Assembly: GCA_021018995.1 (NCBI GenBank)
Contig: CM037596.1
Location: forward strand, 6,957,501 to 7,021,500
Direction of reading: 5' to 3'
Source: Chloranthus sessilifolius
Taxonomy: Eukaryota > Streptophyta > Magnoliopsida > Chloranthales > Chloranthaceae
DNA: 64,000 bases
This document shows, piece by piece, positions 7,555-55,137 of the stretch. The notes beneath the pieces are model-generated. The model did not search any database, was not told the DNA's origin, and saw nothing but the letters and a program-made list of their open reading frames with translations. Made by a program: the position numbers and the translations under genes. Every line of letters starts with the position of its first letter. Position 1 is the first letter of the stretch.

Positions 7555-7668
7555 GGTCGATTAATCGACCAGGGAGGGTCGATGCATCGAGCCGCCAAAA
7601 AGTCCCAAAAATTTGCTTTACAGTATCAGTTTCGTGTCAGACTCTGACTTATCCTCGATTAATCGACC
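7555..7668. repeat. Palindromic array, GGTCGATTAATCGACC type
   Basis: Three copies are present: a perfect 16-bp palindrome at 7555-7570, a variant with TGCA centre at 7577-7592, and TCGATTAATCGACC at about 7653-7668. It lies inside the solo LTR 6250-8052, immediately beside the block at 7705-7800 that is shared with another LTR. Confidence 0.8.
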
Positions 7669-7704: not shown

Positions 7705-7800
7705 AGACACTGCTTCGGTATTTCGGCCATAACTTCCTGTCCCGAACTCGGATTGAGGTGATTCTTGCGCCGTTGGAAAGCGGACGAAAAGATCTACAAC
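7705..7800 (+). repeat. Block shared with the LTR at 39397-41737
   Basis: The landmarks TATTTCGG, CATAAC, TCCCGAACTC, GATTGA and CGTTGGAAAG occur in this order, and again at about 40265-40350 in the same window orientation, with roughly three quarters of bases matching by eye. In both places the block directly follows a palindromic array. Confidence 0.75.
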
Positions 7801-10138: not shown

Positions 10139-21959
<11,821 letters not shown>

Positions 21960-23063: not shown

Positions 23064-24318
23064 AGGAGCGCTCCAACAACTCGGCTCCCATGTCAGGTCG
23101 GCCTTTGGACCCTCCCATGCGATCTCACGCAACCTCCCCGAGTGCACTCCTCGGCATGGTATCAAATATTGGCTGATACCGATATATATGTGTCGATATG
23201 TATAGGGTATCTCTCAGCTATTTAGTTGTCTTTTCTTGCTTGTGAATGTGACTGCTGCCATGAGTGACTGCTGTAAGTTTAATTTTAATGCTCGATTGCT
23301 GACATGAGTTGACTGCTTTACTATTTTTAATGGAAGCAACAACAGGCGTTGAAAGAAGGAAGAGAACTCTAGTCACACCCACCCGTCAAGTGAATGCGCC
23401 CATATCTCAAATCCCTTTGAAAACTGTTGATTGCATAGGATCAAATGATGTAGGTTGTATATTACCTAAATATTTCACAAAATGGATATTGGGATCATGA
23501 ATCACTTATCATACGGTCAGTATTTAAGTACATGTGTCACAGATTCCTAAAAAATGACCTTTGAATCATAATGGCATATATCATGCTCAAACGTGATTTT
23601 TAGGCTATGTTTTGGGATCTGTAATTCGTGAAACCAAGAACCTATCGTTTGATAGGTGCACTATGATCCTAAGATCTATTATGTGGAAGATATGAGTAAA
23701 ACGTGACCTCCATCATCTAATTCTATGTAATTAATAATCAACAGCTTTAATGGATCTAGGATGTTGGCTCATTTAGTAAATAGGTGGGTGCTAATATAGT
23801 TACCCATCCTTTTTCAAAATTTCCTAATTCTCGGCAGATGATGGCATGACATGTCCCTTTAGTTGAGTTGATTATAACTACAGCTATTGTTTTTTTTTTT
23901 TTTTTTTTTTTTTCTTTTAAATAATTTTTGACATTTAAAATATACTAGTAAATATAAACGCTGCCACTTCAGTCTAATAGAACTGCAACATATATATATA
24001 TATAGTTTTTGACTTTTAAAATATACTAGTAAAAATAAACTGCAGACCATATGCATGAGATACGGTGCTCCGTGGAAGGAGTCAAGGAGCTGCTCCTTTC
24101 GTTGCTTTAGTTTATTTCGAGATGTGTGCTACATGGAATTGAAATCTGATCTGATGGGAGATCCATGATTTAAAGATAGTGTTTCGAAGATTAGGAAGAA
24201 TAACGATGTTCACTTGTTTGATTAAAAGCAGCCAATGATTTATTATGCATGTGAAACCCGAGTTGAGGAGGAACCATGGGATGAAAGTAAAGGTAAAGCC
24301 AAAAATCTTTGCTTCTCT
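23064..24318. other. Intergenic DNA, nothing recognised; poly(T) at 23890-23913
   Basis: Fragments such as GGTATCAAATATTGGCTGATACCGATA (about 23158-23184) recall the inverted-repeat element in ATPB intron 5. A T run occupies 23890-23913. Two TTTAAAATATACTAGTAAA strings lie about 80 bp apart (near 23935 and 24016). No gene is visible. Confidence 0.55.
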
Positions 24319-26715
24319 AGGACCCCTGATTTTATAGGGGTCAAATATCAGACCATATATTAAATTCAACTGGATTTAAGTGAGTGATCATCTATGAAAT
24401 TCAAGTGTAAATAAAAATCAGGATAATTTGAATCGTCTCAGGATAATTTGAATCGTCTCATCTATGCACTTTAATATGGATATAAAGTAGGTTACACGAC
24501 TAATTTTTAATTCTTTCTAAATTAAAACAATGAGATATGAGAAACATTTGCAAATACTTTTCAAGAGAAGCGGTCTTTTTGGCCGCATGGCTCAGCCAAT
24601 GAGCAATCAATCATACTGAGAGCCATTTTGGGCCAAAAAATCAGAACAACTGAGGATATGGAGCAACTCATCGAGGAATCCCAAAACCCAAAAATTTCTC
24701 TTAATGTCTTCGGATATGGGTTATTATAGACAAATTTTTTAAGGCTTGATATTATGGTTCTTTGATCAGATGGTTCCAATTCCATCATATGCGTGATTGT
24801 GGGATTGAGTCTCGTAGAAGTCATGGCCAATGGTGGTCCACTTGAGAACCTAATGCTAACTCATTTATAATAGGATTGGAATATTGTTTAGGATAGCCCG
24901 GATGCCCAGGTTATCAGAAAATAAAATAAAATAAAATTATTTAGGATAGCTCTAATGGCTCTCACTTAGTTGATTAGAAACGTGTTAATATTAACTATTT
25001 ATTTTTTTATTTTGAAGAATTAAATAATTTATTATTTTTAATGTTGCCTTGCAATGTGCAGGAATTTCACTATTGCTTGCTCAACTATCATTCTTATTAG
25101 TTGTTACAAATATATATATATATTTTTGACTAGACATTTAAATTTGGGCGACTTTTTAAAAATATCAACCTTAAATGATATATTTATTTGTACAATATTA
25201 AGAAAGTATAATACTTGATTTTAAAGTGCATAATAATTTATTTCTTTTTCAATTTTTGACAATAGAGTTTAGGCTTATTTAATATAAAATTTTCTTACAT
25301 TTAATTTGTTAATTTGTTTATTATTATCATACAATTTCTGTATCCAATATCGTTGATGAATTATAAGATGCAATCAAATTAAATTGAGGCACGTTTGATG
25401 GGTGCTTCTGTACCCATACTTTTTATCTTGCTAGTACCAAACAATAGAAGAGTACATAGGACATGGTTTGATGGGTGCTTCTGATTTCTCAGAGCAATCT
25501 CTATGTAAAGTATGGGTACAAATAACCGAATCCAATTTTTAAGGTTTTTCTTCCTCTGTTCTTATTTATCTCTTTTTTAAAATTTTAATGGCTGATATTA
25601 AAGTTCATCAATCATATGATTTAAATCTCTCTAAAACAATATATTTTGGGCCTGATGCACTTCAACTAGTGATCTATCACACTGTTCGGATCACCAACAT
25701 TTTAAACCGCTGATGGTGCAAGATCGTTTAAACACCAAAAGGGATTTTAGCGTTTCAATGATGGTGAGAAGATTTTGTCCGTTAAACTTATTCAACCGGT
25801 CAAAATGTTTACTTCTCTTACACCCCGATTTATAGAGGTCAAACATCAGACCATATATTAAATTCAACTGAATTTAAGTGAGTGATCATCTATGAAATTC
25901 AAGTGTACATAAAAATCAGGATAATTTGAACCGTCTGATCTATGCAGTTCAATATGGATATACAGTAGGTGTAATAGCCCTGAAATTTTGAACAAGAATT
26001 CGACTGCTTCAATATGCATGCGTGGCATGAAAATCGAGATAAAATTTAAAAATTAAAAATTAATATTATTAGAAATAATATTAATCCGTATGTATGATAA
26101 GTCATGTGTGACTTCTTGCTTAAATTCGAGACTTGTAGGACATTGATGTGGCGTAGTACGCCATAGAAGATGTGTAGGCGCTTCACACTGGAGCCAAGCT
26201 TAGAGAGGAAACTGAAATATCAAGGATATTTCAATTCCTTAGCTTATATGAGAAGGAAGAGGTTTGGATTGGATACCTTTCTTCTTCTTTCTCTTGCTTC
26301 TTGAAAAATTTGTAGCTAGGTTGTGCTTTGAGAGGTTTTTTTTTTTTTTTTGAGAAAACGGGGTTAGTGATACCCGAGGTCGTGCGTTGTCGGAAATAGA
26401 GGGTGGAGAGATCAAATAAACGCTCCACGTTTAGTCTGAGTATGTGTGCGATTTCTGCGTGTTGAAGCGGAACTGATCGTCTGCATGTTCGAGTCATAAC
26501 GGCGATAAAATTTGAGGGACAGATCCGAAACCCTCTTCCAGATCGCTTCGCCGAGAGCTGAAAAATGGCTTCTAATAGGTACGCTTTTAAATTAAAAGTG
26601 TGGAGGTTAAAGCCTCATAAATGGGAAAAATTGATGTATGTGAATGGTTGATGGAAACCATTAAAAGTATGAGATCAAATTGCTGACTGCCATTAATAAC
26701 AGAGAACTGTAATTA

Positions 26716-27345
26716 TTGATCGATCAATACTGAAGATTGATCGATCAATACTGGGGTGATCGATCAATGAGATGCATTGATCGATCAATTTGTATAAGCA
26801 TTAAGTGGGAACAATAGAGACATCTTTCTGGAATTTCAGTGTCCGATGGCATTGATCGATCAATTTGTATAAGCATTAAGTGGGAACAATAGAGACATCT
26901 TTCTGAAAGTTCAGTGTCCGATGGGCATTGATCGATCACAATGAGGTGATCGATCAATGGCAAAGATTGATCGATCAATAAAGATATTGATCGATCAGTG
27001 GAAAAGATTGATCGATCAATAAGGGCATTGATCGATCAATCTATATAAAGTTAGTATGAGAACAGGAAGAGGAAAATTTAAAATTTAGGCTTGTGATCGA
27101 TCAATGAGATGTATTAATCGATCAACTAAGCTGGTGATCGATCAATTTTTCTCTGTCAAATGTAAAGAATAAGGGGCTATTGATCGATCAATTGAAGCAT
27201 TGATCGATCAATGAGATGGATTGATTGATCGATCAATCAAGGTTGTTGATCAATCAATCAACCTTTGTCACCTATGAGTTATGTGAAGGGTTGATCGATC
27301 AATGAGATGGATTGATCGATCAATCAAGGCTGTTGATCGATCAAT
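26716..27345. repeat. Palindromic array, TTGATCGATCAA, about 20 copies
   Basis: I count about 19 exact GATCGATC cores plus two variants in roughly 630 bases, most in the full palindrome TTGATCGATCAA or ATTGATCGATCAAT. Spacers of 5-60 bases are otherwise unrelated. Part of the array (26775-26925) has been locally duplicated as a 75-bp unit. It lies in the solo LTR 25970-28678, about 140 bases downstream of the donor-like site. Confidence 0.95.
26775..26925 (+). repeat. 75-bp tandem duplication within the palindromic array
   Basis: The units 26775-26849 and 26850-26925 each start CATTGATCGATCAATTTG and contain AAGTGGGAACAATAGAGAC. A third copy of the start begins at 26926. This shows how the array may grow. 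Confidence 0.9.
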
Positions 27346-28161
27346 TGCTCCTGTTTTTAGCCTGTTTTGATTTGGTAAATTAAACGCTACTGGACACCGC
27401 ACCAGTTGATGTTCTGACATCCCTGACACCTAGTGTACTATATTTATGGTCTAAGATCAGACCATGACGCTCTGAAAAACTTTAGATTTGCTTAGAAAGA
27501 GGTCTGATCTAAAGTAGGGAAAATTCAACCTAAAATATATTTGACTATAATTTCATGATCCTTTCATATCTGCATCCTGATTTCTATTTTTAAAAAGCAT
27601 GTTTGCATATCAGTAATCTCTGTTATCTCCGACTCCTACTTTCTGATTTCTGTATTCTGAAACCTGTCCCTGATTTCTGATATCTGACTCTTGAGGTCAT
27701 ATGTGTGTATGTGATTTGAGGATTTAACTAGATGATCCCCACCGACTCGGCGGTATATCCGTGCCCTGACACAATCGTGCATTTGCTTTATAAATTTCTC
27801 GGCACAATTGCACTCCATAGATGAGACATTGTTTTAGTCTGAAATAGTTCATGTGAACGACGATTGGTTGAGATTTTCTATTGGCATATTCCTAATTACT
27901 CTGTGCTATATAATCACGGGAGTTTCTTAAGTTAGAAATATTCACAATTTAAGTAACCAAAGATATATTTATGTATAACATCTATTCTTGTTTGAAAACT
28001 CAGTACATGCCATATGATTGATCATGCCTGCATATTCTGATTTGATTTCCTGCTTTGAGATACTACCTGCATATCATGTCTTACATTTTCAGTACAATTT
28101 TAGTTGGGATTCTTCTACTGAGCTTAGATGTAGCTCACCCTGTTTTCTATAATAATTATAG

Positions 28162-28274
28162 GTTATGAGGCTAGAGCTCCCGGCGCTGAGAGCGATCCTG
28201 ATTACCAGCCTGATCCAGAGGCTGAGGCTGAGGACGAGGAGACTAACGTCCAGGCAGACGATTTTTATCCATAG
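28162..28274 (+). other. Acidic reading frame inside the solo LTR at 25970
   Basis: After an acceptor-like TTATAG, the frame reads YEARAPGAESDPDYQPDPEA and continues, rich in E and D, to ADDFYP and TAG (28272-28274). The D-Y-x-P core and the acidic residues plus F-F/F-Y before the stop recur in three other LTRs of this window. No in-frame ATG was found, so how or whether it is translated is unknown. Confidence 0.55.
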
Positions 28275-28398
28275 TCTGGGTACTTGAGTCTTTTATTTTA
28301 AGATTTTTGTATGATACTCTGGAATATTGTGTGCCTGGTGGCCACCGTCTGTATTATTATTTTAGATGTTGTTTATGGTGTTATTATACATTCTGTAA

Positions 28399-28452
28399 GA
28401 ACCACTATCGGAACAATTATTTTGGGTGATGGATGTCCATCACCAGTGGTTC
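28399..28452 (+). other. Two-part hairpin in the LTR
   Basis: The outer stem is GAACCACT (28399-28406) with AGTGGTTC (28445-28452). The inner stem is GGTGATGGA (28425-28433) with TCCATCACC (28436-28444), loop TG. The two right-hand arms are adjacent. Weaker versions of the outer stem occur at matching positions in the LTRs at 39397, 49865 and 52578, about 130 bases after the acidic frame. Confidence 0.7.
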
Positions 28453-29870
28453 TTCTTGATTCCTTTTTAGGGAATGTATATTCTTTTATCCTTATATAGA
28501 TGTTTTATTATTGCTTCTTTATTTAAAGCCATGTATGATGACTCGATCTGTCACTACGGGACAGTGCCTGCTTTGATTTCCGCTAGATGAGTAGACACTT
28601 CATGATTTGTCCTAGGGATCATCCAGAGCATGATCCTGATGACACGGATTTTCGGGCATGAAATTTCAAGCTGTCACAGTAGGTTGCCCGACTAATTTTT
28701 TATTTGTTTCTAAATTGAAACAATGAGATATAAGAAGCATTTGCAGATATTTTCCTAGAGAAGCAGTCTTTTAGTCCACATGGCACATCTAATGAGCAAT
28801 CAATCATATTGAGAGCAATTTTGGGCTAAAAAATCTTACTAACTGAAGATTTAGAACAAGTCATCGAGGAATCCCAAACTCCAAAAATTCCTCTTAGGGC
28901 CCTCAGATATGGGCTATTATAGACAAATTTTTTAAGGCTTAATATTATGGTGCTTTGATCGGATGGCTCCAATTCCATCATATGCGTGATTGTGGGATTG
29001 AGTCTCCTAGAAGTCATGGCCAATGGTGGCTCACTTGGGAACCTAATGCTAACTCATTTATAATAGGATTGCAATAGTGTTTAGGATAGCTCTAGTGGCT
29101 CTCACTTTGATTATAAAAGTGTTAATATTAATTATTTATTTTTTTATTTTGAAGAATTAAATAATTTATTATTTTTAATGTTGCGTTGCAACATGCAGGA
29201 ACTTCCATATTGCTTGCTCAACTATCATTCTTATAAGTTGTTACAAATATATATTTTTTAAATTAGACATTTAAATTTGGGCGACTTTTTAAAATATCAA
29301 CCATAAATGATATATATATTTGTACAATATTAAGAAAGTATAACACTTGATTATAAAGTGCATAATAATTTATTTCTTTTTCAATTTTTGACGATAGAGT
29401 TTAAATTTATTCAATATAAAATGTTCTTACAGTTAATTTGTTTATTTTTATCATACAATTTTGTTATCCAATATCGTTGATGAATTATAAGATGCAATCG
29501 AATTAAATTGAGGCACGTTACTTTTTTTCTTGCTAGTACCAAACAATAGAAGAGTACGTAGGACATGGTTTGATGGGTGCTTCTGATTTCTCACAGCAAT
29601 CTTTATGTAAAGTATGGGTACAAATAACTGAATCCATTTTTATGGTTTTCGTTCCTCTGTTCTTATTTATCTCTATTTTGTCAATTTTAATTGCTGATAT
29701 TAAAATTTATCAATCAGATGATTTAAATCTCTCTAAAATAATATATTTTGGGCCTGATGCACTTCAACCTGTGATCTATCACACAGTTTGAATCACCTAC
29801 ATTTTAAATCGCTGATGGTGCAATGATGGCGAGGAGATTCGGTCCCTTAAACTTATTCAACCGGTCAAAG

Positions 29871-33356: not shown

Positions 33357-35721
33357 ACTTCTCTTTCTTTCCTTGATCTAAGCTGGAATGAATTGCAAAG
33401 TGTGAGGTGGAGATCCATGGGTGGTCTCTGCAACTTGCGCATGTTAGACTTGTCGTTTAACTCTGAGCTTAGGGGAGAGATTCAGGGAATTATAAAAAGT
33501 TTGTCCGGATGTAAAATTGGGAATAGCTTATTAGAGGATTTGCATTTGCGTTTCACTAAACTCAGTGGGTCTTTGCCAGAGGAGTTAGGGGAGTTTCAAT
33601 TTTTAAAAAATCTTGATTTTACAGGAAACTCTCTTGTTGGTCCAATTCCTGCATCTCTTGGAAGATTGTCCTTGTTGAGTACATTAGGACTTGTAGGAAT
33701 AAATTAAATGGTTCGATACCGTGTCTCTTGGAAGTTTGTCATCTTTGTCTGAATTAGATCTAAGTTTTAACCAGTTTAGTGGTCTCATTCCTAGTTCTCT
33801 CCAAGGAATGTCGTCCTTGATTTCATTAGACCTTAGTAATAACCAATTTAGTGGTCCAATTCCTAATTTCCTTTGTGCGTTGTCTTCGTTAGATACGTTA
33901 TCTCTTCCTAGTAATAAGTTCAATGGGACTATTCCAGAATGTCTTGGGCAACTTTCAAATCTAGCTTTTTTGGATGTCTCTAATAATTCATTAGAGGGTG
34001 TATTTTCGGAAGCTCACTTTGCAAATCTCACAAGTCTATACAAGTTAGACATTTCTTTGAACTCCTTAGTCTTGAAAGTGAAATCTGATTGGGTTCCTCC
34101 TTTTCAACTCAGGCATATAGGATTGCGCAATTGCCAAGTGGGGCCCAAATTTCCTACATGGTTGCAAACTCAACAACGTTACTATTTCGATCTAGATTTG
34201 TCCAATGCAAATATTTCAGCTGATATTCCATATTGGATTTGGAATTCATCCCGCTCTTTGGATCTCTCAAACAACAATATCAGTAGCAAGATTCCAGATA
34301 ATATTTCCCATATGGAGTCACTGTTTATGAGCTCCAACCATTTGCATGGTCCATTGCCACAAATGCCTAATACAATCCAAGCACTTGATCTCTCTAACAA
34401 TCAATTATCAGGATCCCTTAACCCTCTATGTAATTTTGGGGGGTCTTTGAGGCTGCTCGATCTCTCTAGAAATCATTTCTCGGGAGAAATTCCTAGATGT
34501 TTGAATTTTTCGCAAGATTTGGCTATTGTGGATTTCTCACACAACCATCTATATGGAGAAATTCATAGCAGGGTTTGTTCTATGTATAAACTCAGATCAT
34601 TACACTTGAATAACAATAGTCTCGCTGGGGAAATTCCTTTGTGTTTGGAAAATTGTTCTGACTTGATTACTCTTGATCTTGGGGAAAATGCGTTTTCTGG
34701 AAAAATACCAGAAATAAAAGGAAACAGCCTATCACATCTTAAAATTCTCCGACTACATTCAAATAAGTTTTATGGGCACATTCCTCCACAACTATGTGAT
34801 CTTACTGAACTTCAGATTTTGGACCTTGCGGGTAATAATCTATCAGGGACCATGCCATCGTGTTTGGGAAATCTTGCTGCAATGGCTGTAAGACAGAGGA
34901 TGAGTAAGGATATATTGTCTCTAGCTGAATACACTGGCTATAACAAGTATGAAGAGAGCATTTCTTTGATGGTAAAAGGTGTTGAGCGAAGATATAGCAA
35001 GATCCTTCCACTTGTGATAACCATAGACTTGTCAAGTAATAACTTATCTGGAAAAATCCCTCAAGAACTAACTACTCTCGTTGGACTGCAAAGTTTGAAT
35101 TTGTCACTAAATGATTTGGAAGGGAAGATTCCAGCGACTATCGGCAATTTGAATCAGCTGGAATCTCTTGATCTCAAGAGAAACCATCTTTCAGGTGCAA
35201 TTCCCCCAAGCATGGCCTCTCTAAATTTTTTAAGTTCTTTGAACTTCTCATATAACAACTTGTCGGGAAAAATTCCTATGGGCACCCAACTTCAAACTCT
35301 CAATGATTCATCTATTTATCTCGGCAACGATCAACTCTGTGGACCTCCACTTACAGAAAAGTGCCCAGAAGATCAAACATATCAAGATCCAACAGTTGAT
35401 GGCGGTAACAATGATGAATCAGAAATGTTTTGGTTCTACATTAGCATTATACTGGGATTTGTAGCGGGGTTTTGGGGAGTTTGGGGTTTTTTGTTGTTCA
35501 ACAAGTCTTGGAGGAAGGCATATTTTCAATTCTTTGATAACATACAAGATAAGCTTTTTGTGGCAGCAACACTGAATGTAGCTCGGTTGCAGAAGAAGTT
35601 TGAGAAAAACTGAGATTGTCAGCCATAAATTGGGGAGATGTTTAATTATTATTATTTTTTCATGAGTAGTTTGGTTTGTGGTTGTCATGAGCATGTTGTG
35701 TTAAGTGGAATGTTTTTATAA

Positions 35722-38975: not shown

Positions 38976-40150
38976 TAGTCCGCTTGACCTCATCACTTCC
39001 GACTCTTTGACCTGGGCCATTGTGCCTTATCGTAGAGAACCTATGCGGTCCCAGGTTGTTGTAGATGCCGCTCTCGTCCATGCCATGGGTGTTTACACTA
39101 ATGCCCTTGAGGAGGAACTAAGTCGATCCAACGCTACCTTGGTGGCCGAAAGATTGAAGACTGTTTCTCTTCGACATAACTAGCTAAAGATGGAGGACTA
39201 TGAAGATATGCACCTCAACTGGAACTATGAGAGGTATTTTCGTGATGCTGATGCTAAGAAGCATGCAGAGGCTAACGAGAAATGGGAAAAAAAGATGAAC
39301 AATTTGCGTGCCCAATTGTCTCTCATTGTTCTTGATACTGATGATGCAGATATGGGTGGAGCCACTCTTCCCTATAGTGGGAAAGGAGCAGCCTTTTGTA
39401 ATATCCTTGATATTTTTGGCCTATTTTTCGTTTACCTCGGTAAGTGTGTCCGGAAATTATTACGGGATTTTGTTGGATTTTTGGTTAGTCTTGTGTTTGA
39501 TGGGAATATTGACCAAAGGCTTTTGTCTTGGGCCTTGTGAAAGTCTTATATGTGTTAACATACACATTAAGTCCGATGTTGTGTTTAACACCGGAAATTT
39601 CTGCAATTTAAGTGGATAAGATGACAAATATAAAAATCTAGATATTTGTTTTGCTTGTTTTTTTGGTTATAAGAGAGATTGTAAAGAGAAGTGTAACTTC
39701 TCCCTCTCATTGGTTTTTTTGAAGCCTATAAGCCTTGCCTCACCCTGATCTTAGATCTTGTGAGCTTGAGAGTTCCTCTCCCCATCTCGACCATTGATTA
39801 GAATTGTACTTGAATTTTGATTGGTTTGAACCATTGAAAGAGAAGAGAGATGTGGAGAGTGATAAGATCTGTGTGATCTTGTTGGTTGCTGAGGCAGTGG
39901 CCACCTCATTATAATCATGGACTGATTTTGTAGTCCAATTGGAACTTGCTGCTTGATCTGGTGCTTGGAATTGGATCAACAGAAGCTAGGAGTAGACCTT
40001 GAAAGGTAGGCTCTTTAAACACCTTTGATTAAAATTATTTATGCTTAGAATAGTTTAGATAAAGGGTATGTCTAAAAAAGATAGATGGATTGGTGTTTTG
40101 GAATGAAAAATCAAGTCAGAAGAACAAATCTGGAACACACAGATCTGGAG

Positions 40151-40254
40151 AAATTCGAGGGTCGAATTTCAATTCGAGGGTCGAATTTAGATTTTTAAGC
40201 CTGATGCATTTTTGGGAAATTCGAGGGTCGAATTTGAATTCGAGGGCTGAATTT
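40151..40254. repeat. Inverted-repeat array AAATTCGAGGGTCGAATTT x 4
   Basis: Copies at 40151-40169, 40171-40188, 40217-40235 and 40237-40254. Each has 8-base complementary arms around GGG; the last has one change (GGCTGAATTT). They are arranged as two close pairs. The array is directly followed by the block (about 40265-40350) shared with the solo LTR at 6250. Confidence 0.9.
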
Positions 40255-41332
40255 GGTCTAACACTGCTTTGATATTTCGGTCATAACGTTTTATCCCGAA
40301 CTCAGATTGATGCAATTTTTGAGGCGTTGGAAAGAAGACATCGAGCCCTATAATTTTCATGAATTGAGAAATTTGTATATCGAATGTTATAAATGTCAAA
40401 ATTTAGGGTGAAGTAGGGACATGTTTTCACATGAGTCAACGTTACCTTAAAACTTGCCTGTTTCGCTTAGTTGTGAGAAAATTTTAGGAACTTTGACTTA
40501 TATGATAATTAGTTGGTAACATGTGTATACATGAATGTTTGTAATGTAAATTAAAGATTGGAGATCATTGAGTGGGCATTTGCTTTGCCTCTGATATGCT
40601 CGACTCTAAACTAAGGTAGGGGAACTCTACACATTATTTGCATTCTGTTATAAGTAGGGACTGTTTTGACTATTTGATAAGAAGCATAAATTTTGAGATC
40701 AATTGTTTGAAAACAGTATGAATAAGAACCTGAACATATGATACAAATCAGAAATTTGGAAACTTTGTTATGATTAAGAACTTTGTAATTTGAACCTCAG
40801 AACCTCAGTTAATTTTTGAATAAGAACTTCGAATCAGAACTCCGAAAAATTAGTAATATGTTATAAATAATAAGTTTTGATATAAATTAGCATTTGCATT
40901 CGATTTGAGGTACATACGAACGATGCCCTAGATTCTACCAACCGTGTTGACGGTATAAATTTTGGCGCAAGTTTCCCTCATAGCGTAAGGGCTTGTTGCA
41001 CTTCAGAAAATGGGTTTATGAACGACGATGGTTAATAGGGTTTCCCATCGGTTACGTAGTCCGCTCTCATGCTATAGGAAATTTGAGAGATAAAATTAAG
41101 TTATAAATTTAAGATAAGAAGCATGCTAATTCAGAAGATTTTGAACACATTAGATGAATATTTTAGTTTTGGCTCATGATTAGAACTGGAGATTTAATTT
41201 GCAAGGCATCTTTTGAAAATCATATTTGATCCGATTTCACTCTTTGAAAACCTTTACTTATAATGAAATGCAAATAGATATGTTTCCTCTATTGGGCTTT
41301 GTTGTTAGCTCACCCTCGACTATACATCACAG

Positions 41333-41427
41333 GTGCTGAGACTGACCTAGGATCAGAGGATTTGGAGGACTCCGATTACATTCCTGAGGAGGAATTGGAT
41401 ACACCTACTGAGGAGTTTTTCTCTTGA
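41333..41427 (+). other. Acidic reading frame inside the solo LTR at 39397
   Basis: After CATCACAG, the frame reads AETDLGSEDLE, then DSDYIPEEELDTPTEEFF, S and TGA. It aligns residue by residue with the frames in the LTRs at 49865 and 52578 (DSDYVP...). No in-frame ATG was seen. Confidence 0.6.
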
Positions 41428-43617
41428 TTCTAGATCACTTCTTTTGGTACTTTTGTTAGAATATTAATTGAATATTGGGCCTTAGGCCTTTGTTTTGTCC
41501 CTTTGATATCACTCGAGGAACCATTATTGTGAACCACTATTTTAGGTATTGGATTGGCCATCACCGGTAGTTCTTCCTGGTTCCTCAGAGTGATATATAT
41601 TTTTTGTTATTAAAAGCTTTTGTTTTTTATCATTGTTATGTTGCCGACTTCTGTTTGTTACGGCTTATTGAGAAATCAATGAGTTGATGAATCGGCTTTT
41701 CCTATACCTTAGGGATTGGAAAAGTCGGGCCGTCACAGCTTTGCTCCGCCCCCTCCCGCTTCATCCTCCCATAAATGAAAGGGACGTTGAGTGTGCATCC
41801 TTGGTGCTTATGCTGAATTTCTTTATTTTTCTGATTGCTCTCTTATCTTATTTTCTTGTTTATTAATTTGTGCAATGAGGGCATTGCACCACTCAGGTTT
41901 GGGAGTGTTTGTAGTAACTTTTATGGTTTTTATTTCTGTATATATGCATATTTTATTGGCCACTATTTTATCTTGCTATACCACTATTTTGACACCCTCA
42001 AAACCTCATTTTTTTTAATTTTTTTGAACTACCTTATGCTTATTTTCCATAGTTTTAATTTTAAACTTTAGTTTTTGATGCATGTGAGTTCTATTTTGAA
42101 AATGCTAATGCCTTGTTAGGACTGTTGTTGTCCATGGTTATAAAATTTAATGTGAACATTTAAAGAAAAGTCTGAAATTCATGCTTAGAAAATCTTTTGC
42201 ACCATTACCATGCTTGAGTCCAGAAATCAAGAAACTAGTCTGAACTTTGAACCTTAGGATCTTAGTGGAGACTTAATCTGGTGAGCTTTAAATCCATCTA
42301 TCCATCTTTGATGAGTGAATACATAAACTCGGAGTATATTTGAATACGAATTATCTTGTTTAATCTCATACATTTTACCTTGGCTTGTTGCTTTGCATGA
42401 CACTACTTTCATATCATCGTGTCAGAACGCATTATGTTTTTGCTCAAGACAAACAAACATATTTACCATCTTGTGAGGAAATGATTGAAGGTCATCTTTG
42501 ACTCGTTTATGCTCAAAATGTCTCACCTCATATAATTTTACCTTTAGTATCCCTTTTGAGCCTCTTTGAAAATTTTGTCGTTATATGTTCTTTGATAAGC
42601 CACGTTAACCGTTTTTCCTACACTATTTCTGGAAGTTTAAGCCTTACCCTTCTATTTTTGAGAAATTAGGAATGAGAGATGAGAGTGAATTAAAAGAGAG
42701 TAAGTGGAGAGGAATGAGTGGTGGTGTTTATTGAGAGCATATGGCAAAAAATTCAGTGAAAAGAGAAAAAAAAGGGTTTGAAAAAGAACAAAAAATTATG
42801 AGGCATTTCCAAAAAGAAAAGGAGTAAAAAGAAATGAAAAGTAAGTTGAGGAAAAGAAAAAGAAAAACTTCGAGAGATTAGAAAAGAAAAGTGGAAAAAT
42901 TAGAAGAAAAAAAAATCAAATTAGTTTCTTTCCTAGTTTCTCAAAAATTTTGAACCCCAATTTCCGTTGCTTTCTTAACCCTTACCCGATCCCTGTTACA
43001 ACCCTTTCAAAGACCTTCTTGATCTGATCTGGACATGGTAAATGCCTTGTGAAGAGTGAGAATATGATGCCTATGATACTTTGATATGGCATGCTTAGGA
43101 TACAAACATCTTTCTTTATAAGATTCATTTTATTCTTTGATGAACCATATTTCTTTTATCATGTGAGACCCTTTTATTTATTTTGTATTGATCCATCACA
43201 TGCGTGCGGAAACTTATCCATTCATTGGAGCAATTTTGTTTTGAGAGTATACCTAAGGTGAGGTTGAGTCGAGACATGGGATTCGACAATTCATTGTTTG
43301 GAACAATTACTGGTTATTATTTTGCAAAATATATATGTAAAGAAAACCAATTTTGAATACTCAATTTACGGATGGTTTCAAAAAATTATTTTGAAAGTTT
43401 GTGGGTAACTTCACTGTAAACCCTCATGAGACACAACTCCTCCACTAGGGGTTTAAAGGCTTGTTGCGTACGCTAAATGCAATCGTGCTCCCTACGAAAG
43501 TGATATTTACTTTCATAGAACAACTTGTATTTTCTAGGATAAATTGTGATTTGCTTTTGATCATATTTTTAAATTTTGCCTTTGCTTGAGGACTAGCAAA
43601 GTTGAGGTTTGGGGGTG

Positions 43618-45189
43618 TGATTAGCCTTCAAAATTGTCTATGATAGACTCGAATCCTGAATCTCGGCCTTGCTAACACTCAATTACCTAATAATGTTTGC
43701 CTTTAATATGAGATGTGCTACAACAAGTTTGAAGGTCGAAGGTATGCAAAAATGGTTAAAAAGAGCAAAGTAGAAGATGACCCGAAGCTATGACAAGTGA
43801 CAGAGTTGAAACAGAGTGAAGAAGCCTACAATAGGCAATTTGGACCGGTCAAAATAGCGCAGCAGTAGAGAAAGAAAAAAAAGAAGAAAAAATAAAAGAG
43901 ATTGCATATCTCGACCAGTCGAGATGTCCATTTAGACCGGTCAAGTCCATTGAAGCTTCAAAAATCCAATTTGGACCGGTCGAGACTAAACTCGACCAGT
44001 TGAGACCAAACAGAAAAAATAGCTCTCTTATAGTTATAATCTTGACCGGTCGAAGTTAATTTTGACTAGTCAAGTCTGAAGATACAATTTGAAGTAAATG
44101 AGAAGCAAGACTGAACGAAAGTCAGTTTCGACTGGTCGAAATTTAAGGAGAACGAGAATCGGCGCACCTGGAGAGAAAATAGAGAACTCGACCGGTCGAT
44201 ACCCAATTTTAACTGGCCGAGACAGGCATTCTGTGCAATTTTTTAGGTTTGATAGGTTGGATCTTCTAGCTTCCGAGAGTCTTTTCGTATCTATCTTCTC
44301 TAGCTGATTTCTTGGGTGATTTTAGGGATTACATGTCGTAGATAACTATCGTACTGTGGCCTTATGATCTATAAATAAGGACCCTAGAGTTAGGATTTCC
44401 TTTGAGAGTTTCCTTAGGGTTAGTTTACTTTTTGCATTTTAGGTTTAGTTTTCTAGTTTTGGAGAGTCAAGAGAGAGTTGTGTGATCTGTAATCATCACC
44501 TGATGATTGAATCAGAGATGATGAAGATCAATCAGACGATGCATGGCTAACTTCTCCAAGGCTGGAATCCTTTGTAAATCACAAATGAGTTTTTAATATA
44601 ATTTCTATTCTTTTTCTATTTCGAATTTCTTATGGTATGATTGTATGTTTGAGTCTGTGGTTGTTACCGTAGACATGTCAGTAGCAATTTATTTCTGTTT
44701 TATTTAATCCTAATGGCCTTGTAGGGATTAGGATTAGATCTCATAGGATAGACACCCTTAGATTAGTGCTTGTAACCTAGTTTTGACGGTTACGTGCGAT
44801 AATATTTACTATTTAGGTCGTTAGCGATTAGACGGATCATATCGACTAAGACTGGTCTGTGACTATAAATATGAGCTGATTCTTATACCTCTCTTTAGCT
44901 TGTAGCAAAGAGCAAGATTGTACTCGAAATTCGAAATATGATAGGAATAGAAGTCAAATTATTTACGAGTCTGTAATCGAAGAGGGATCCCAGGCTGCTT
45001 TCTCATAACTTTTTCAAATCTGTTTTATTTGCTTTTTAGTTAATTAAATAAAAAAACTTCTTTTAAAATTCTTTTCGATTAAGATTGTAGTTAGAAAGTA
45101 AACGACAAGTCTCTGTGATTCGACACCCTTGTACTTGCCCTAATACTTCGGACTTGTGCACTTGTAAGGTTTCAGATTTTAAACGATCA
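43618..45189 (+). mobile_element. 3' LTR of the Athila-like element
   Basis: It starts TGATTAGCC right after the purine tract GAGGTTTGGGGGTG and ends at about ACGATCA. Features are a GACCGGTC palindromic array (43850-44222), TATAAATAAGG at about 44370 as likely TATA box, a pyrimidine-poor leader, and a GTGCACTTGTAAGG string near the end. The right boundary is inferred from similarity to the end of the solo LTR at 6250. Sequence to the right belongs to a different, copia-type element. Confidence 0.7.
43850..44222. repeat. Palindromic array GACCGGTC / TCGACCGGTCGA, about 10 copies
   Basis: Motifs include GGACCGGTCAA, CTCGACCAGTCGAGA, AGACCGGTCAAG, GGACCGGTCGAGA, TTGACTAGTCAAG, TTCGACTGGTCGAAA and CTCGACCGGTCGA. 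Variation keeps the symmetry in several copies: CTAG, CCGG and complementary flanks. It lies in the Athila-like LTR about 230 bases from its start. Confidence 0.9.
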
Positions 45190-49864: not shown

Positions 49865-50477
49865 TGTAATAACCCAGAATTTCATGACACGTGTAGGTCA
49901 CGTGTGGCTTACGCTAGGTGTAAATGTTTGTGGTTGACAAGTGAACCACACCTACATTATACACTACTAGGTGTATGCATATCATATGTGAACTAGGTGA
50001 AGGGAAATAGCAAACAGGGGTGTGTGTGCGTAACACACAAATTTCTCCACTAGTTGGAAATAGGGGAGAAGAGTCTCCCATACGTTATTTCAAGTTAGCT
50101 TAGAAAGAGAGTAAAATAGAGAGCAGAAAGAATAGGGTTTTGATAAAAGAAAAGTTGGAAATAGGGATTTCTTGTGAGCAAAAGGTAGGATTCACCTTAT
50201 GGATTTTAAATACATAAGATGAGGATGGTGTGGTGAAGAGAGTGATGAAGAACCATTAGTTTTGAACTTGTGGATGATCAAGAAAGGGTTGGGAGGAAGG
50301 GTTTTGAAACCCTCTTTTTTAGACATGATCTTAAATCAAATCTAGAAGAGATTTGATGATTTAAGGTATGTTTTAATATTTATATATGCATTAAATAGTG
50401 TATAAATTATTGATAGATTTGTGATGGCATTTATTAAGGTAATAAATGATGTAGGAAGTTAGTTCTCGAAAGGATCG

Positions 50478-50738
50478 AGCAGTAATGTGATCGCTCCTCG
50501 CTCGAGCAGTTATAATAGCTCGCTCGCGCGAGGAAGGATAAAGACTATAAGTGAAAATATGTTCTGGACTCGCTCGAGCGAGACCCTTTGTGAAGGGGTA
50601 GCTCGTGCGAGCGAGGTATCACGTGAGCTCTAGGTCCCTCGTTTCGAATTTGTCGAGCGGGAGATGATACCTCATTTATCATCGCTCGAGTGAGGTCAAG
50701 TGATTGCTCGAGCGATGAATAGTGCTCGCTCACGTGAG
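50478..50738. repeat. Palindromic array CTCGCTCGAGCGAG, about 8 copies
   Basis: Copies include TCGCTCGAGCA, GCTCGCTCGCGCGAGG, CTCGCTCGAGCGAG, GCTCGTGCGAGCGAG, ATCGCTCGAGTGAGG, TTGCTCGAGCGAT and GCTCGCTCACGTGAGG. Several copies vary at the centre (CGAG, CGCG, ACGT) but keep approximate symmetry. CpG-rich against AT-rich surroundings. Confidence 0.92.
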
Positions 50739-51754
50739 GTACTACATAGAATTTTATATTTATTTTTGTTGTTCTTGGGAGCTATGGTCCTCAAGATCCT
50801 TGTAGGCTTTTCTAACAGTATTTTGGCACATGCAATATAGGTTTGGCGTGTAATTATTGCATTTGATCCCCTAAGAGATAATGATGCATTTTAGATTGAT
50901 GGCTTTGCTGTGAGGTAGGGAATACCTCGAACATGTACTTTAATTTCAAAAGCATGTATGTAGTGATATAGATTTGAATACATATGCATAGTAAAAGTAA
51001 GCCCGTAAATGTGTGTGTGTGTGTGTGACACAAAGTAAGTGAACATGTGATATTCCCAGGGGATAAGAATGAAAAAAAGGCATCTGTGAGATGCATCAAT
51101 TTAGACATCCCAAGGATGTATGTGATAGTGTAAAGAAAGAAATTAATGAGAGCTGATAAGGCCTAATCTATTATATTTTAGCACAATCACACAGTGGATA
51201 ACTATATGTAGTGTACTTGATATTTTTGATATTTAAGGTTTGAATAGAATATCCCACCGACGTGGCAGGATACCTACGACTGACTCAACAAGATATCCGT
51301 GACCGGTATAGCGGCCAATCCGTACACTAATTGCATATTTCAGGGATGTTAATATGAGAATTTGACCCCGTCGCTTATGAGAAAGGGACCTGGGTAGTAG
51401 TAATAAATGAGAAATGATATGAAAACTGTTTAGTTAGACGACGATGGAGGGTATTCCATCGGGCGCCCAACTCTATAGAAAGTTGGGGAATATTTAAGTT
51501 ACAGATTTAAGTCTTTAGGTTAAATCAGTTTAGTTTATGACCAGTTTGAGAACAGATGAAACATGTAAAGTAACGGTAATGGTAACGGTAAATGCATTTT
51601 TTCAGTCATTTAAACTGTTGTTTTTCCAGTAAATTCATTAATACATCATGCTGTCTAATGTCATAGAATATATGTGAGAATTGACTTATATGTTCATTGT
51701 ATTTTTCTCCTATTGAGCTAGGATGTAGCTCACCCTTTAGACTATGCGTCGCAG

Positions 51755-51858
51755 GTCCTGTGCTTGCGACTACTAAGGCTCCGGCAGACGTAGATCCAGG
51801 AGATTCAGATTACGTGCCCGGGGAAGATTTGGAGCCTCCTCCTAAGGACTTCTTCTAG
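51755..51858 (+). other. Acidic reading frame inside the solo LTR at 49865
   Basis: After GTCGCAG the frame reads PVLATTKAPADVDPG, then DSDYVPGEDLEPPPKDFF and TAG. Compared with the frame at 54451-54560, most base differences in the last 23 codons are synonymous. Confidence 0.62.
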
Positions 51859-52411
51859 AGGACCCGTTGCTTATTTTGATATAGATTTGAGAGAGTACTG
51901 TGCGGCTTGATATGTCAAGCCTTAATTTTTATAAACATGTAATTAAATGAATTATTCTTTTAACGAACCATCTTGGGTGACAAATGTGATGTCATTGACG
52001 GTTCGGGTGGGTTCTCCTGCTCATGTAGAAGCATGGGATCAGAACCATCTTTTGGGTCATCTATGTTGAGATTTTATATGGTAGAACTGGAGATTTATTT
52101 CAGTATCAGTTCTTATGCGCTTTGTTTTTCTTTATCATTGCTTGGTTATACTAGTGTTCCGTACAGGACTATGGGGCACGGCCTCGAGGGATGTGTTGAT
52201 GGCACGGGTTTTGAGGTGCCGAAATTCGGGCTGTCACATCAGGACTTTCAGTTTTGGATCGATTTCGGTCTGATTTGGCCGACGGATTTGAGACTTGCGT
52301 CCAACCTTGTTTTATGCGTAGGTCTCAAACCGGATCCGGTTTAAGACCGTGCATTATATGCACAACACGTGTATGGCCCACTTTTTCGAAAGAAAAGACT
52401 TGTCTGAATGT

Positions 52412-52550
52412 GAGAAGGGGAATAGCTTATCAGAGCATTTGGATTTGTCTAATAATCAACTCAACACGTCTTTGTCGGGTGAGTTCAGGGAGTTTAAAAT
52501 TTTAAAATAGTAGACAAATCCAAATGCTCTAATAAGCTATTCCCATTCTC
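52412..52550. repeat. 40-nt inverted duplication of LRR sequence (hairpin)
   Basis: The arm 52412-52451 (GAGAAGGGGAATAGCTTATC...) recurs in reverse complement at 52511-52550 with two mismatches, separated by 59 bases. Only the forward arm has a counterpart in the first RLP copy (around 33520-33550), so the reverse arm is the derived one. Confidence 0.92.
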
Positions 52551-53177
52551 TTGAAGAATTGTCGTTAACTCTGTTACTGTAAGTCTTCAAAAATTGGGAG
52601 TTTAACAGTGTTCTCGAGATATGTGCCCGAATGGTCGTAGGTTTGACCAAGTGAAAGTCAATACGATGACTATGGTTAAATTAATTTTGATGTGAATGAA
52701 CACATATGCATAGTGTTAGAGCTAGTTTAGAGGTCGCATACACCTATCTTTGGCGTGTGTGTTTTACACCAAAGCTAGAGAGGGTTAAAAGGAGGCAAAT
52801 AACTAAGAGAAGTTATTTCTCCTTAATATGGGTTGGTGTAGAGTTATGAAGAGAGAGGGAGAGTAAGAGAGAGTAATTGTAAGGGAAATGCGGTGGAATA
52901 ATGGATTGAAGCCACACGTGAGCTATAAATTTCGACAACAACGCGTAGGTGATTCGTGGAAGTCGGAGCTAGGAACCCTAGCCTTTGAGCCAAGCCATTG
53001 AATCAACCAAGGGTTGATTTGAGGTGAGTTTTTGTGGGATTTTAATGCATGTGTTGTTGTACATTAACTCTAAGTTAGATTGGCAAAATGTTGAATTAAA
53101 AATATAGAAAAGAAAAGAAAATAGTAAGGGAAGAAAGCTGAAAGAAATGCTCGCAAAGGGGCTAAGTTCTGACCAAA

Positions 53178-53463
53178 TTGATTGATCGATTTGAAAAATG
53201 GATCAATCAATTTTGACTTGGAAGTCAGCTGGGCAGAAATGCTCGAAACCGATTGATCGATTTAAAATCGATCAATTGATTTTTGAAATCCGATTAATTG
53301 ATTTAAAATCGATTGATCGTCTGAGCATTCCCGGTGGCTGGAAAATCAGAGCTTGAAAAAATCGATTAATCGATTTGAGAAATCGATCAATCGATTTTGG
53401 AATTTTGATTAATCGATTTTGGGAGTTCGATTGATCGATTTTGGAGATCGATCAATCGATTTG
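53178..53463. repeat. Palindromic array AATCGATTAATCGATT, about 11 copies
   Basis: Copies include GATTGATCGATTT, GATCAATCAATTTT, ATCGATCAATTGATTT, AATCGATTAATCGATTT, AATCGATCAATCGATTT and TTGATTAATCGATTTT. It occupies the same relative position as the CTCGAGCG array in the sister LTR at 49865 but has no sequence in common with it. Confidence 0.92.
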
Positions 53464-54450
53464 AGCAGTTTCTGTTGGCTTTTGTTTTGAACCTTGAGGT
53501 TCTAGGAGGGTCTTCTACCTTCTTTGTTGCATCTTTCTTGATGTTTTGCTCATGCTATGGTATATCATAGGTTGTACGAGTGAGTGCAAGCATGGAAAAT
53601 CGCGTTGGACCTTGATGCTTGGAAATTCAAACGTGTGAGGTAGGGAACACTTTGAACATGTACTTAAATTGCAAGAGCATATATGTAATGATATAGAATG
53701 AAATAAATGTGAAACTTAAGTGTGTGTGTGTGTGAACACTAAGTAGAGAAATTGAGATACAAATGAGGTATGTGACGTCCCCAAGGGATGAGAATGTGAA
53801 ATGAGCATCTGTGTGATGCGTTGAGCTAGTTACATCCCAGGGATGTATGTGAAGATATAAAGCAAAGTAAATGAAACTGATAAGGCCTAATTCACTATAA
53901 TTACCACAATCACATGGTAAATAACTATATGTAGTGCACTCTTGATATTTAAGATTTGGAAAATACCCCACCGACGTGGCAGAATACCCATGACTGACTT
54001 GGCAGGATATTCGTGACCGGTACGGTGGCCAATCCGTACACCAGTTGCACATCCCAGGGATGTATGTATGAGAAATAAATCCTGTCGCCTATGAGAAAGG
54101 GATCTGGATAGTATTGAATGAATGAAAAAGGATATAAAATGGTCTGATTAGACGATGATTGAGGGTATTCTATCGAGCGCCCGATTCTATAGTAAGTCGG
54201 AGAATATTTAAGTCTTTAGGCCGAATCATTGCCTTATATGAGAAAGTTGAGAACAAATAAAAACATGTAAAGTAACAGTAACATTCAGTGCATCTTTTCA
54301 GTCATTAAACTATTATTTTTCTAGTAAATTCATTGATACATCATGCTGCTAAATATCATGGAATATATGTGAGGGATTAATTTATATGTTCATTCGATTG
54401 TTTCCCTATTGAGCTAGGATGTAGCTCACCTTATAGACTATACGTCGCAG

Positions 54451-54560
54451 ATTCGGTGCTTGCTACTGCTACTGTTACTGCTTCAGGAGGTGTTGATCCG
54501 GAGGATTCGGATTACGTATCTGGAGAGGATTTGGAGCCCCCTCCTGAGGACTTCTTCTAG
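54451..54560 (+). other. Acidic reading frame inside the solo LTR at 52578
   Basis: After GTCGCAG the frame reads SVLATATVTASGGVDPE, then DSDYVSGEDLEPPPEDFF and TAG. It is the sister of 51755-51858. Confidence 0.62.
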
Positions 54561-55137
54561 AGAACCCGTGCATACTTTGATATAGTTTTGAGAGTATACT
54601 GTACGGATTGGTATGTCAAGCCCTTTTTGAGAAAATATAATTATACATTGATATATTATTTTGGTGAATCATTTGGAGTGTCCTTGTTTTATCACCGATG
54701 GTTCGGGCCGATTCTTCTGCTCATGCAGTGGCATGGGATTAGAACTGTCTTTTGAGCTTTTGCTATAATATATCATGAATGCATGAGAGATTTAGTTCGA
54801 TTCAGTTCTTATATTTTATTGTGCTTGGTTATACCAATATTTTGTGCAGGATTGTGGGGCACAACCTCGAGGGTCGTACTGATGGCACGGGTTTCGGGGT
54901 ATAGAAATTCGGGCTGCCATAGTTACATCTTAGCAATAATCAATTCAGTGGTTCAATTCCTACTTCTCTTGAAACATTGCTACTATTGTATTCATTATTT
55001 CTTCATAATAATACATTTAGTGGTCCCATATTCTTGATTCTATCGCAAGATTTCCATCTTTGAGATGCTTAGAGCTTTCTGATAACATGTTCAGTGACCT
55101 TATTCCAATTTCTCTTTGTATGTTGTCTTCAGAGGTG

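Follow-up and report, generated by a model that had tools for sequence, protein, structure and literature searches.

Apparent exchange of palindrome-bearing 5' halves between long terminal repeats in the genome of Chloranthus sessilifolius

Introduction

How two neighboring long terminal repeats (LTRs) with a common 3' part come to carry palindrome arrays of unrelated motif at the same position is the question raised by a 64,000-nucleotide stretch of the Chloranthus sessilifolius genome (GenBank assembly GCA_021018995.1, contig CM037596.1, positions 6,957,501 to 7,021,500 of the forward strand), referred to here as the window. The two LTRs, LTR1 (49865..52238) and LTR2 (52578..54921), both lie on the plus strand. 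In an earlier note on this DNA they were taken for sister LTRs in which the array is replaced or rewritten while the sequence around it is conserved. The answer reached here is a different one: the copies compared below indicate that the unit exchanged on shared 3' modules was not just the array but, as a block, the entire ~1-kb 5' half in which it lies.

Results

Both elements proved to be solo LTRs, as the note had proposed: their ends agree, are TG..CA-like (terminal bases CA in LTR1 and TA in LTR2) and are bordered by 5-base target-site duplications, tcaag/tcagg (4/5 bases) for LTR1 and gttac/gttac (5/5 bases) for LTR2. In their surroundings, the spacer at 52400-52507 matches 33501-33608 of the window, a region that we take to hold genes of the leucine-rich repeat type. 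The array of short palindromes reported ~600 bases into each LTR was located as well. It is CTCGCTCGAGCGAG-like in LTR1 (S type, about 50467..50745, plus strand) and ATCGATTAATCGAT-like in LTR2 (A type, 53175..53465, plus strand, 10 units at no more than 2 mismatches). Palindromes covered 46 bases of the LTR1 array against a dinucleotide-shuffle mean of 11.5 (2 of 500 shuffles equally high) and 116 bases of the LTR2 array against a mean of 33.3 (0 of 500 equally high), and no enrichment over shuffles was found in the 5' and 3' parts of either LTR outside the arrays. The observed/expected CpG ratio was 1.47 in the LTR1 array and 2.25 in the LTR2 array, compared with 0.32-0.75 in the flanks, and the units of the LTR1 array are irregularly spaced and are not head-to-tail tandem copies. 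The statement that the two arrays share nothing beyond self-complementarity was correct as far as the motif goes, none being common to both, but both arrays are CpG-rich and both contain TCG-N6-CGA matches (3 in LTR1 and 4 in LTR2).

The flanks had been said to align on both sides of the array; blastn similarity, however, lay exclusively 3' of the arrays. The sole long alignment joins 50909-52236 of LTR1 with 53634-54919 of LTR2 (the last ~1.3 kb, 73.7% identity), and no similarity 5' of the arrays was found by blastn. All motifs that the note had named sit 3' of the arrays, and similarity sets in near TGAGGTAGGGAA (50910 in LTR1 and 53635 in LTR2). We accordingly divide each LTR, on the plus strand, into a 5' cassette and a 3' module. 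The LTR1 cassette (49865..50909) is of S type and alignable only to other S-type copies; that of LTR2 (52578..53634) is of A type. The 3' modules extend over 50910..52238 in LTR1, where the initial ~400 bases are closest to A-type copies, and over 53635..54921 in LTR2. The boundary in LTR1 is sharp, similarity to A-type LTRs starting with GTGAGGTAGGGA (50910..50921, plus strand). Nor are LTR1 and LTR2 each other's closest relatives, as each module has 90-92% identical kin elsewhere in the genome.

Relatives were searched for in the 2.17-Gb genome from which the window comes. An LTR2 module query (53634-54000) gave 6611 first-look candidates, the best 40 of which were scored (all at least 87%); 38 of these 40 were compared, the window copy included and the two LTRs of each of two elements counted separately. 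An LTR1 module query (50909-51300) gave 6090 first-look candidates; here, too, scoring covered the best 40, and 38 of them were compared. Because scoring was limited to the best 40 of 6611 and the best 40 of 6090, the sample is biased to close kin. With L079, a distant member taken from a random sample, the comparison set amounted to 77 copies. Motif counts decided the array class of 66 rows, and inspection by eye together with the match of the 5' half that of the other 11.

Sixty-six of the 77 copies carried an A array (ATCGATTAATCGAT-type) and 11 an S array (CTCGCTCGAGCGAG-type). An ATCGAT-type array of 6 to 13 units stood at the same place in 38 of 38 LTR2-module copies, while the 38 LTR1-module copies divided into 27 A and 11 S. 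The 17 nearest module matches of LTR1 (self excluded, among the best 40 of 6090) were 88-92% identical to it, and the 15 of them that were fetched (L052-L059, L080-L084, L088 and L089) all combined an A-type array with an A-type 5' half; S-type arrays sit on modules ~84-85% identical to the LTR1 module. The distant member L079 (67.7% module identity) has an A-type array, and a third LTR type, that of LTR3 described below, had its own TTGATCGATCAA array in 10 of 10 fetched copies (10 taken from 40 scored). Among the copies compared the array is a stable trait of the LTR type, with one motif class per type, that is, a family-specific noncoding array. Quick rewriting of the array is not supported, given this stability of array class within 5'-half type (38/38 LTR2-module and 10/10 LTR3-type copies).

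The 5' halves and the 3' modules of these copies gave different pictures. Every A-A pair (2145/2145) and every S-S pair (55/55) aligned over at least 200 bases of the 5' half, in contrast to none of the 726 A-S pairs at any length (E 1e-5). Rewriting of the array alone, in place, is ruled out, as 0 of the 726 A-S pairs keep 5' similarity around the array at this threshold. On a 66-row tree of the modules, array class changed 4 times, all 4 changes being forced by starred branches, and a single S clade was rejected (approximately unbiased test, p-AU = 0.00016); on a 76-row tree (76 of the 77 copies, L059 being excluded for length) there were 5 changes, 3 of them forced, and p-AU was 0.00045. 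Forcing the S copies together cost 92 and 96 log-likelihood units in the 66- and 76-row trees, respectively. The initial 200 module bases alone rejected one S clade (p-AU = 0.005), and in the 66-row tree LTR1 fell within a 6-row clade, otherwise all A, that had 98/94 support. Shuffled labels required ~10 changes on average versus the 4-5 observed; since this clustering of the array label on the module trees was matched by 0 of 500 shuffles, exchanges appear to have been few. Because A-S pairs share no 5' similarity while their 3' modules interleave, the array appears to move as part of the whole 5' half. The types are discrete and uncoupled from the rest, as in Tnt1-like modular U3 evolution, here for the two LTR parts compared. 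The earlier idea of an array motif that does not follow the phylogeny of its flanks thus holds for the 3' flank (4-5 changes, one S clade rejected) and fails for the 5' half, to which the array is tied.

The same trees bear on the alternative that A and S are two old LTR lineages in each of which the array evolved slowly, the 3' module being merely slower to change and the mixing of classes noise in the tree. In its favor are the stability of arrays within type, a short module signal (~400 bases), the many open forks in the trees and the clustering of the label. We consider this alternative unlikely, given that a single S clade was rejected in all four trees (p-AU 0.00016 to 0.044), that LTR1 sits inside an A clade with high support, and that A-S pairs have no 5' similarity at E 1e-5 despite modules that are 90-94% identical in 8 of these pairs.

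In those 8 S/A pairs, which were chosen across the tree, similarity began within three bases of TGAGGTAGGGAA, and upstream of this joint there were short weak matches only (best E 0.002). Trees and pairs together show that cassettes have more than once been joined to different 3' modules, and that the pairs compared have the joint in common. Two histories could produce a fixed joint: one ancient non-homologous replacement, after which homologous exchange took place within the module, or recurrent exchange at a point set by the mechanism, e.g., the end of strong-stop DNA. Over the first 100 module columns LTR1 is 95% identical to A-type L052 and 86% and 84% identical to S-type L067 and L065, respectively; because LTR1 resembles A-type copies from the first bases of the module, the second option, or else a crossover in the immediate vicinity of the joint, is favored. 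The first module bases are uninformative for the S copy L065, whose partner in the tree is A-type L062. Over the last ~400 module columns identity falls in all pairs, A-A and S-S included, and no inference is drawn there. A U3/R border at the joint, with which strong-stop transfer would explain the fixed position, is disfavored because a donor-like splice site upstream, 5' of the arrays, points to an earlier transcription start.

The elements to which such LTRs belong were examined in two pieces (L029 and L030) lying between pairs of LTR2-type LTRs ~10 kb apart and 88-90% alike. Their pol order is RVT_1, RT_RNaseH, Integrase_H2C2 and SH3_Tf2-1, i.e., reverse transcriptase, RNase H and integrase in succession, with the caveats that in L029 RVT_1 is under the Pfam cut-off and the rve match is only weak. 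On account of these predicted domains between its LTR pairs, the LTR2 type is assigned to the Ty3/gypsy LTR retrotransposons. A scan for a Del/Tekay chromodomain in 10 pieces with broken frames found SH3_Tf2-1 and no Chromo match at E 0.01. LTR ends such as TTCGGGCTGTCACA look similar to the Del/Tekay U3/U5 attachment letters of PMC4029996, the numbering having been matched without certainty.

Palindrome arrays are found in other parts of the window too. Two distant relatives on the plus strand, LTR3 (25970..28678, duplication gtagg/gtagg) and LTR4 (39397..41737, duplication ccttt/gcttt, 4/5), have a TTGATCGATCAA array at 26714-27345 and a AATTCGAGGGTCGAATT array at 40150-40245, respectively, and LTR1-LTR4 bear different palindrome motifs at like position. 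LTR3 interrupts one copy of a duplicated stretch (24302-29823), the other copy of which, at ~24492, resembles an empty site around GTAGG. An LTR at 43616-44220, presumably Tat/Athila-like, begins after TTTGGGGG, and its TCGACCGGTCGA array (43908-44215) stands 154 bases ahead of CTATAAAT. Another array, of TCGATTAATCGA and TCGATGCATCGA, lies at 7555-7666. LTR4 (40270-40345) and a further element (7715-7785), presumed to be an LTR on the opposite strand to LTR4, have in common a stretch TTTCGGYCATAAC..CCGAACTCRGATT..CGTTGGAAAG that adjoins palindrome arrays. A miniature inverted-repeat transposable element (MITE) at 18816-19310, which we take to be hAT-like, contains TCGCATATGCGA palindromes. 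It has CATTGTTGTCAAA as inverted ends and CTTGCAAT at either side, and its minus strand carries a TATA-like box. A weak array at 20299-20352 was not above expectation (69 of 500 shuffles equally high).

In a random genome sample (80 positions were drawn and the first 10 used, 6 kb each; the draw left out contigs C9 and C11 and all contigs after C15), palindrome arrays were judged by eye to be present in 3 of 10 pieces (L042, L045 and L048). L042 has the S motif and L045 the A motif, each in surroundings for which blastn at E 1e-8 gave no match to either LTR1 or LTR2. Within 3400-3960 of L042, the end of a Ty3/gypsy frame, presumably chromodomain-like, precedes the S-type array, which comes with a TATA-like box, again with no LTR1 match. 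Seven arrays other than those of LTR1-LTR4 (four in the window and three in random pieces) were followed, in what is presumed to be the sense direction, by a TATA-like box at a distance of 16-154 bases; LTR4 has such a box 143 bases and LTR3 444 bases from its array. The box patterns were set after the sequences had been read, and the counts carry no chance control. TCG-N6-CGA had 15 matches in ~2.05 kb of arrays versus 8 in the 61.9 kb of the window outside them, a count that is partly circular because the arrays were preselected as palindrome-rich; it was dropped as a general array grammar, LTR3, LTR4 and the array near position 20.3 kb having none. Pattern scans of IMG/VR with two conserved motifs returned 0 matches.

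The variety of arrays also concerns the possibility that palindromes have no function, having spread by slippage or conversion and been carried along with LTR promoters. Such neutral spread strikes us as improbable: enrichment is confined to one place per LTR with CpG above the flanks, spacing in LTR1 is irregular rather than tandem, and LTR1-LTR4 carry different motifs at like place, even if the range of unit number across the 38 LTR2-module copies, with indels in their alignment, speaks for it, as does a rate of CpG transitions ~2.5 times that of other transitions per site, as in methylated dead copies.

The 3' modules keep an acidic open frame (..DSDYVPGEDLEPPPEDFF stop), present as GDSDYVPGEDLEPPPKDFF stop in LTR1 (51799..51858, plus strand) and as EDSDYVSGEDLEPPPEDFF stop in LTR2 (54501..54560, plus strand), with further copies at 41365-41427 and 28191-28274. 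Changes relative to LTR2 numbered 136, 62 and 222 at the three codon positions, with 2 premature stops (39 ungapped of 46 copies). The frame looks protein-coding and may represent the final exon of a gene carried by the LTR. Just 5' of it is a conserved box (51705-51736, 54398-54430, 28110-28141 and 41280-41315), which is TATTGAGCTAGGATGTAGCTCACC in LTR1 and LTR2 and looser in LTR3 and LTR4 and looks like a splice acceptor.

Discussion

We think it probable that these LTRs are two-module mosaics whose cassettes have been exchanged, likely by template switching, and whose arrays serve as control sites. The 5' cassette of ~1 kb comprises the LTR start, a leader and the palindrome array and exists in types A and S without alignable common sequence, while the 3' module of ~1.3 kb, starting near TGAGGTAGGGAA, is common to both. 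The likeliest route would be template switching during reverse transcription between co-packaged A-type and S-type element RNAs. The array would most likely be a cluster of putative binding sites for a dimeric DNA-binding protein controlling the LTR, and cassette exchange would then exchange the control input of the LTR. Sites of this kind are suggested by the presence of the same motif in unrelated surroundings, of different motifs in like place, of loopless dyads and of palindromes in a DNA transposon, and the TATA-like boxes that follow other arrays speak for regulation as well; that the arrays are cis-regulatory sites we infer from sequence. A broader proposal, that Ty3/gypsy LTRs of this plant and a MITE use interchangeable cassettes, each with a palindrome array read by a sequence-specific dimeric protein, so that a single swap at one joint would give a family a new regulator or free it from a repressor, is in our opinion possible but doubtful.

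Several results weigh against cassette exchange with arrays as control sites. Bootstraps were unsettled in three of the four module trees, the 220 module bases following the first 200 rejected one S clade only marginally (p = 0.044), and several of the nearest LTR1 relatives are near-identical neighbors on contig C9 (L052-L054, L055-L056 and L057-L058) and hence non-independent. No TATA-like box was present within 500 bases 3' of the LTR1 and LTR2 arrays. When TCG and CGA half-sites spaced by k bases were counted in the 60 kb of random pieces, k = 6 (13) ranked behind k = 2 (25), k = 20 (16) and k = 17 (14). A donor-like splice site lay 5' of the array in 55 of 66 A-type copies (1 of 66 on the reverse strand) and in 10 of 11 S-type copies, where the reverse strand gave 6 of 11 and the signal is hence weak; A arrays may lie within a transcribed intron. 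Finally, predicted RNA folding of the arrays was strong (z = -6.2 for LTR1 and -10.5 for LTR2).

The last two results would suit arrays that act as RNA, through transcript hairpins or through homotypic dimerization or packaging in which cassette type sets the pairing partners, and retroviral RNA, which has palindromic dimer sites, offers a parallel. Any palindrome array folds well, however, and the z-scores do not discriminate; many core palindromes lack a loop, and similar palindromes occur in the presumably hAT-like MITE. Arm-to-arm covariation was not seen in 38 copies (15 compensatory cells versus 18.5 in shuffles), a test of low power because most arm differences probably reflect post-insertion decay. 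On balance, a role as RNA seems to us a weak contender. An arms race, in which the arrays would be sites of an element-encoded anti-silencing protein (VANC-like) and motif turnover would give family specificity, appears quite improbable. VANC target motifs are described in the parts of PMC5735166 and PMC10398659 consulted as fast-diverging noncoding arrays, introns included, with a motif that differs per family, and the LTR types studied here likewise differ in motif from one to the next, with arrays that are perhaps intronic; yet the motif is stable within LTR type, and no encoded DNA-binding protein was seen in a scan covering two pol pieces.

What makes LTR control regions diverge far faster than the remainder of a retrotransposon is an old question. 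Two discrete front halves, one back half, one joint and countable arrays render it testable, both for an array-reading protein and for the effect of a swap on expression or silencing. The result also carries a warning, as families defined by whole-LTR similarity may conceal cassette exchange.

Modular LTR exchange as such is already known; its palindrome-array form was not found in print, a literature search that was largely outside subscription journals having turned up no description of palindrome arrays in exchangeable plant LTR front halves. Tnt1, Retrolyc1 and Retrosol are Ty1/copia elements. Their U3 evolution is presented in PMC1838419 as modular, with discrete regulatory LTR-end types on a shared element, as here; theirs is a U3 type uncoupled from the coding region, in a main text without words beginning 'palindrom' or 'tandem', whereas here a ~1-kb cassette carries a palindrome array and ends at one sharp joint. 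The Del (Tekay) LTRs, also Ty3/gypsy, have a CpG-rich, length-variable stretch in their 5' part, and these plastic 5' CpG islands were proposed to aid in escaping host control; no such islands were found in the eudicot group of that paper, the main text of which has no 'palindrom' words (PMC4029996). VANDAL elements with VANC resemble the present case in their family-specific short-motif arrays in noncoding transposon parts, introns included, and differ, in the portions of PMC5735166 and PMC10398659 drawn on, in being DNA transposons with a non-palindromic motif (YAGTATTAY) and a known cognate VANC protein. Retand elements are Ty3/gypsy and likewise have family-specific arrays of short repeats, variable and in tandem, but these are internal, between pol and the 3' LTR rather than in the LTR, and 'palindrome' occurs in the text available to us only in the reference list (PMC11963269). 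Partial LTR replacement between elements, as with the cassettes here, is also described for centromeric retrotransposons, in which, according to the sections of PMC4079200 used, new subfamilies arose by substitution of LTR sequence from another chromovirus for a portion of the LTR, with template switching as one route; breakpoints there are stated to vary between hosts, whereas a single joint recurs in the pairs compared here.

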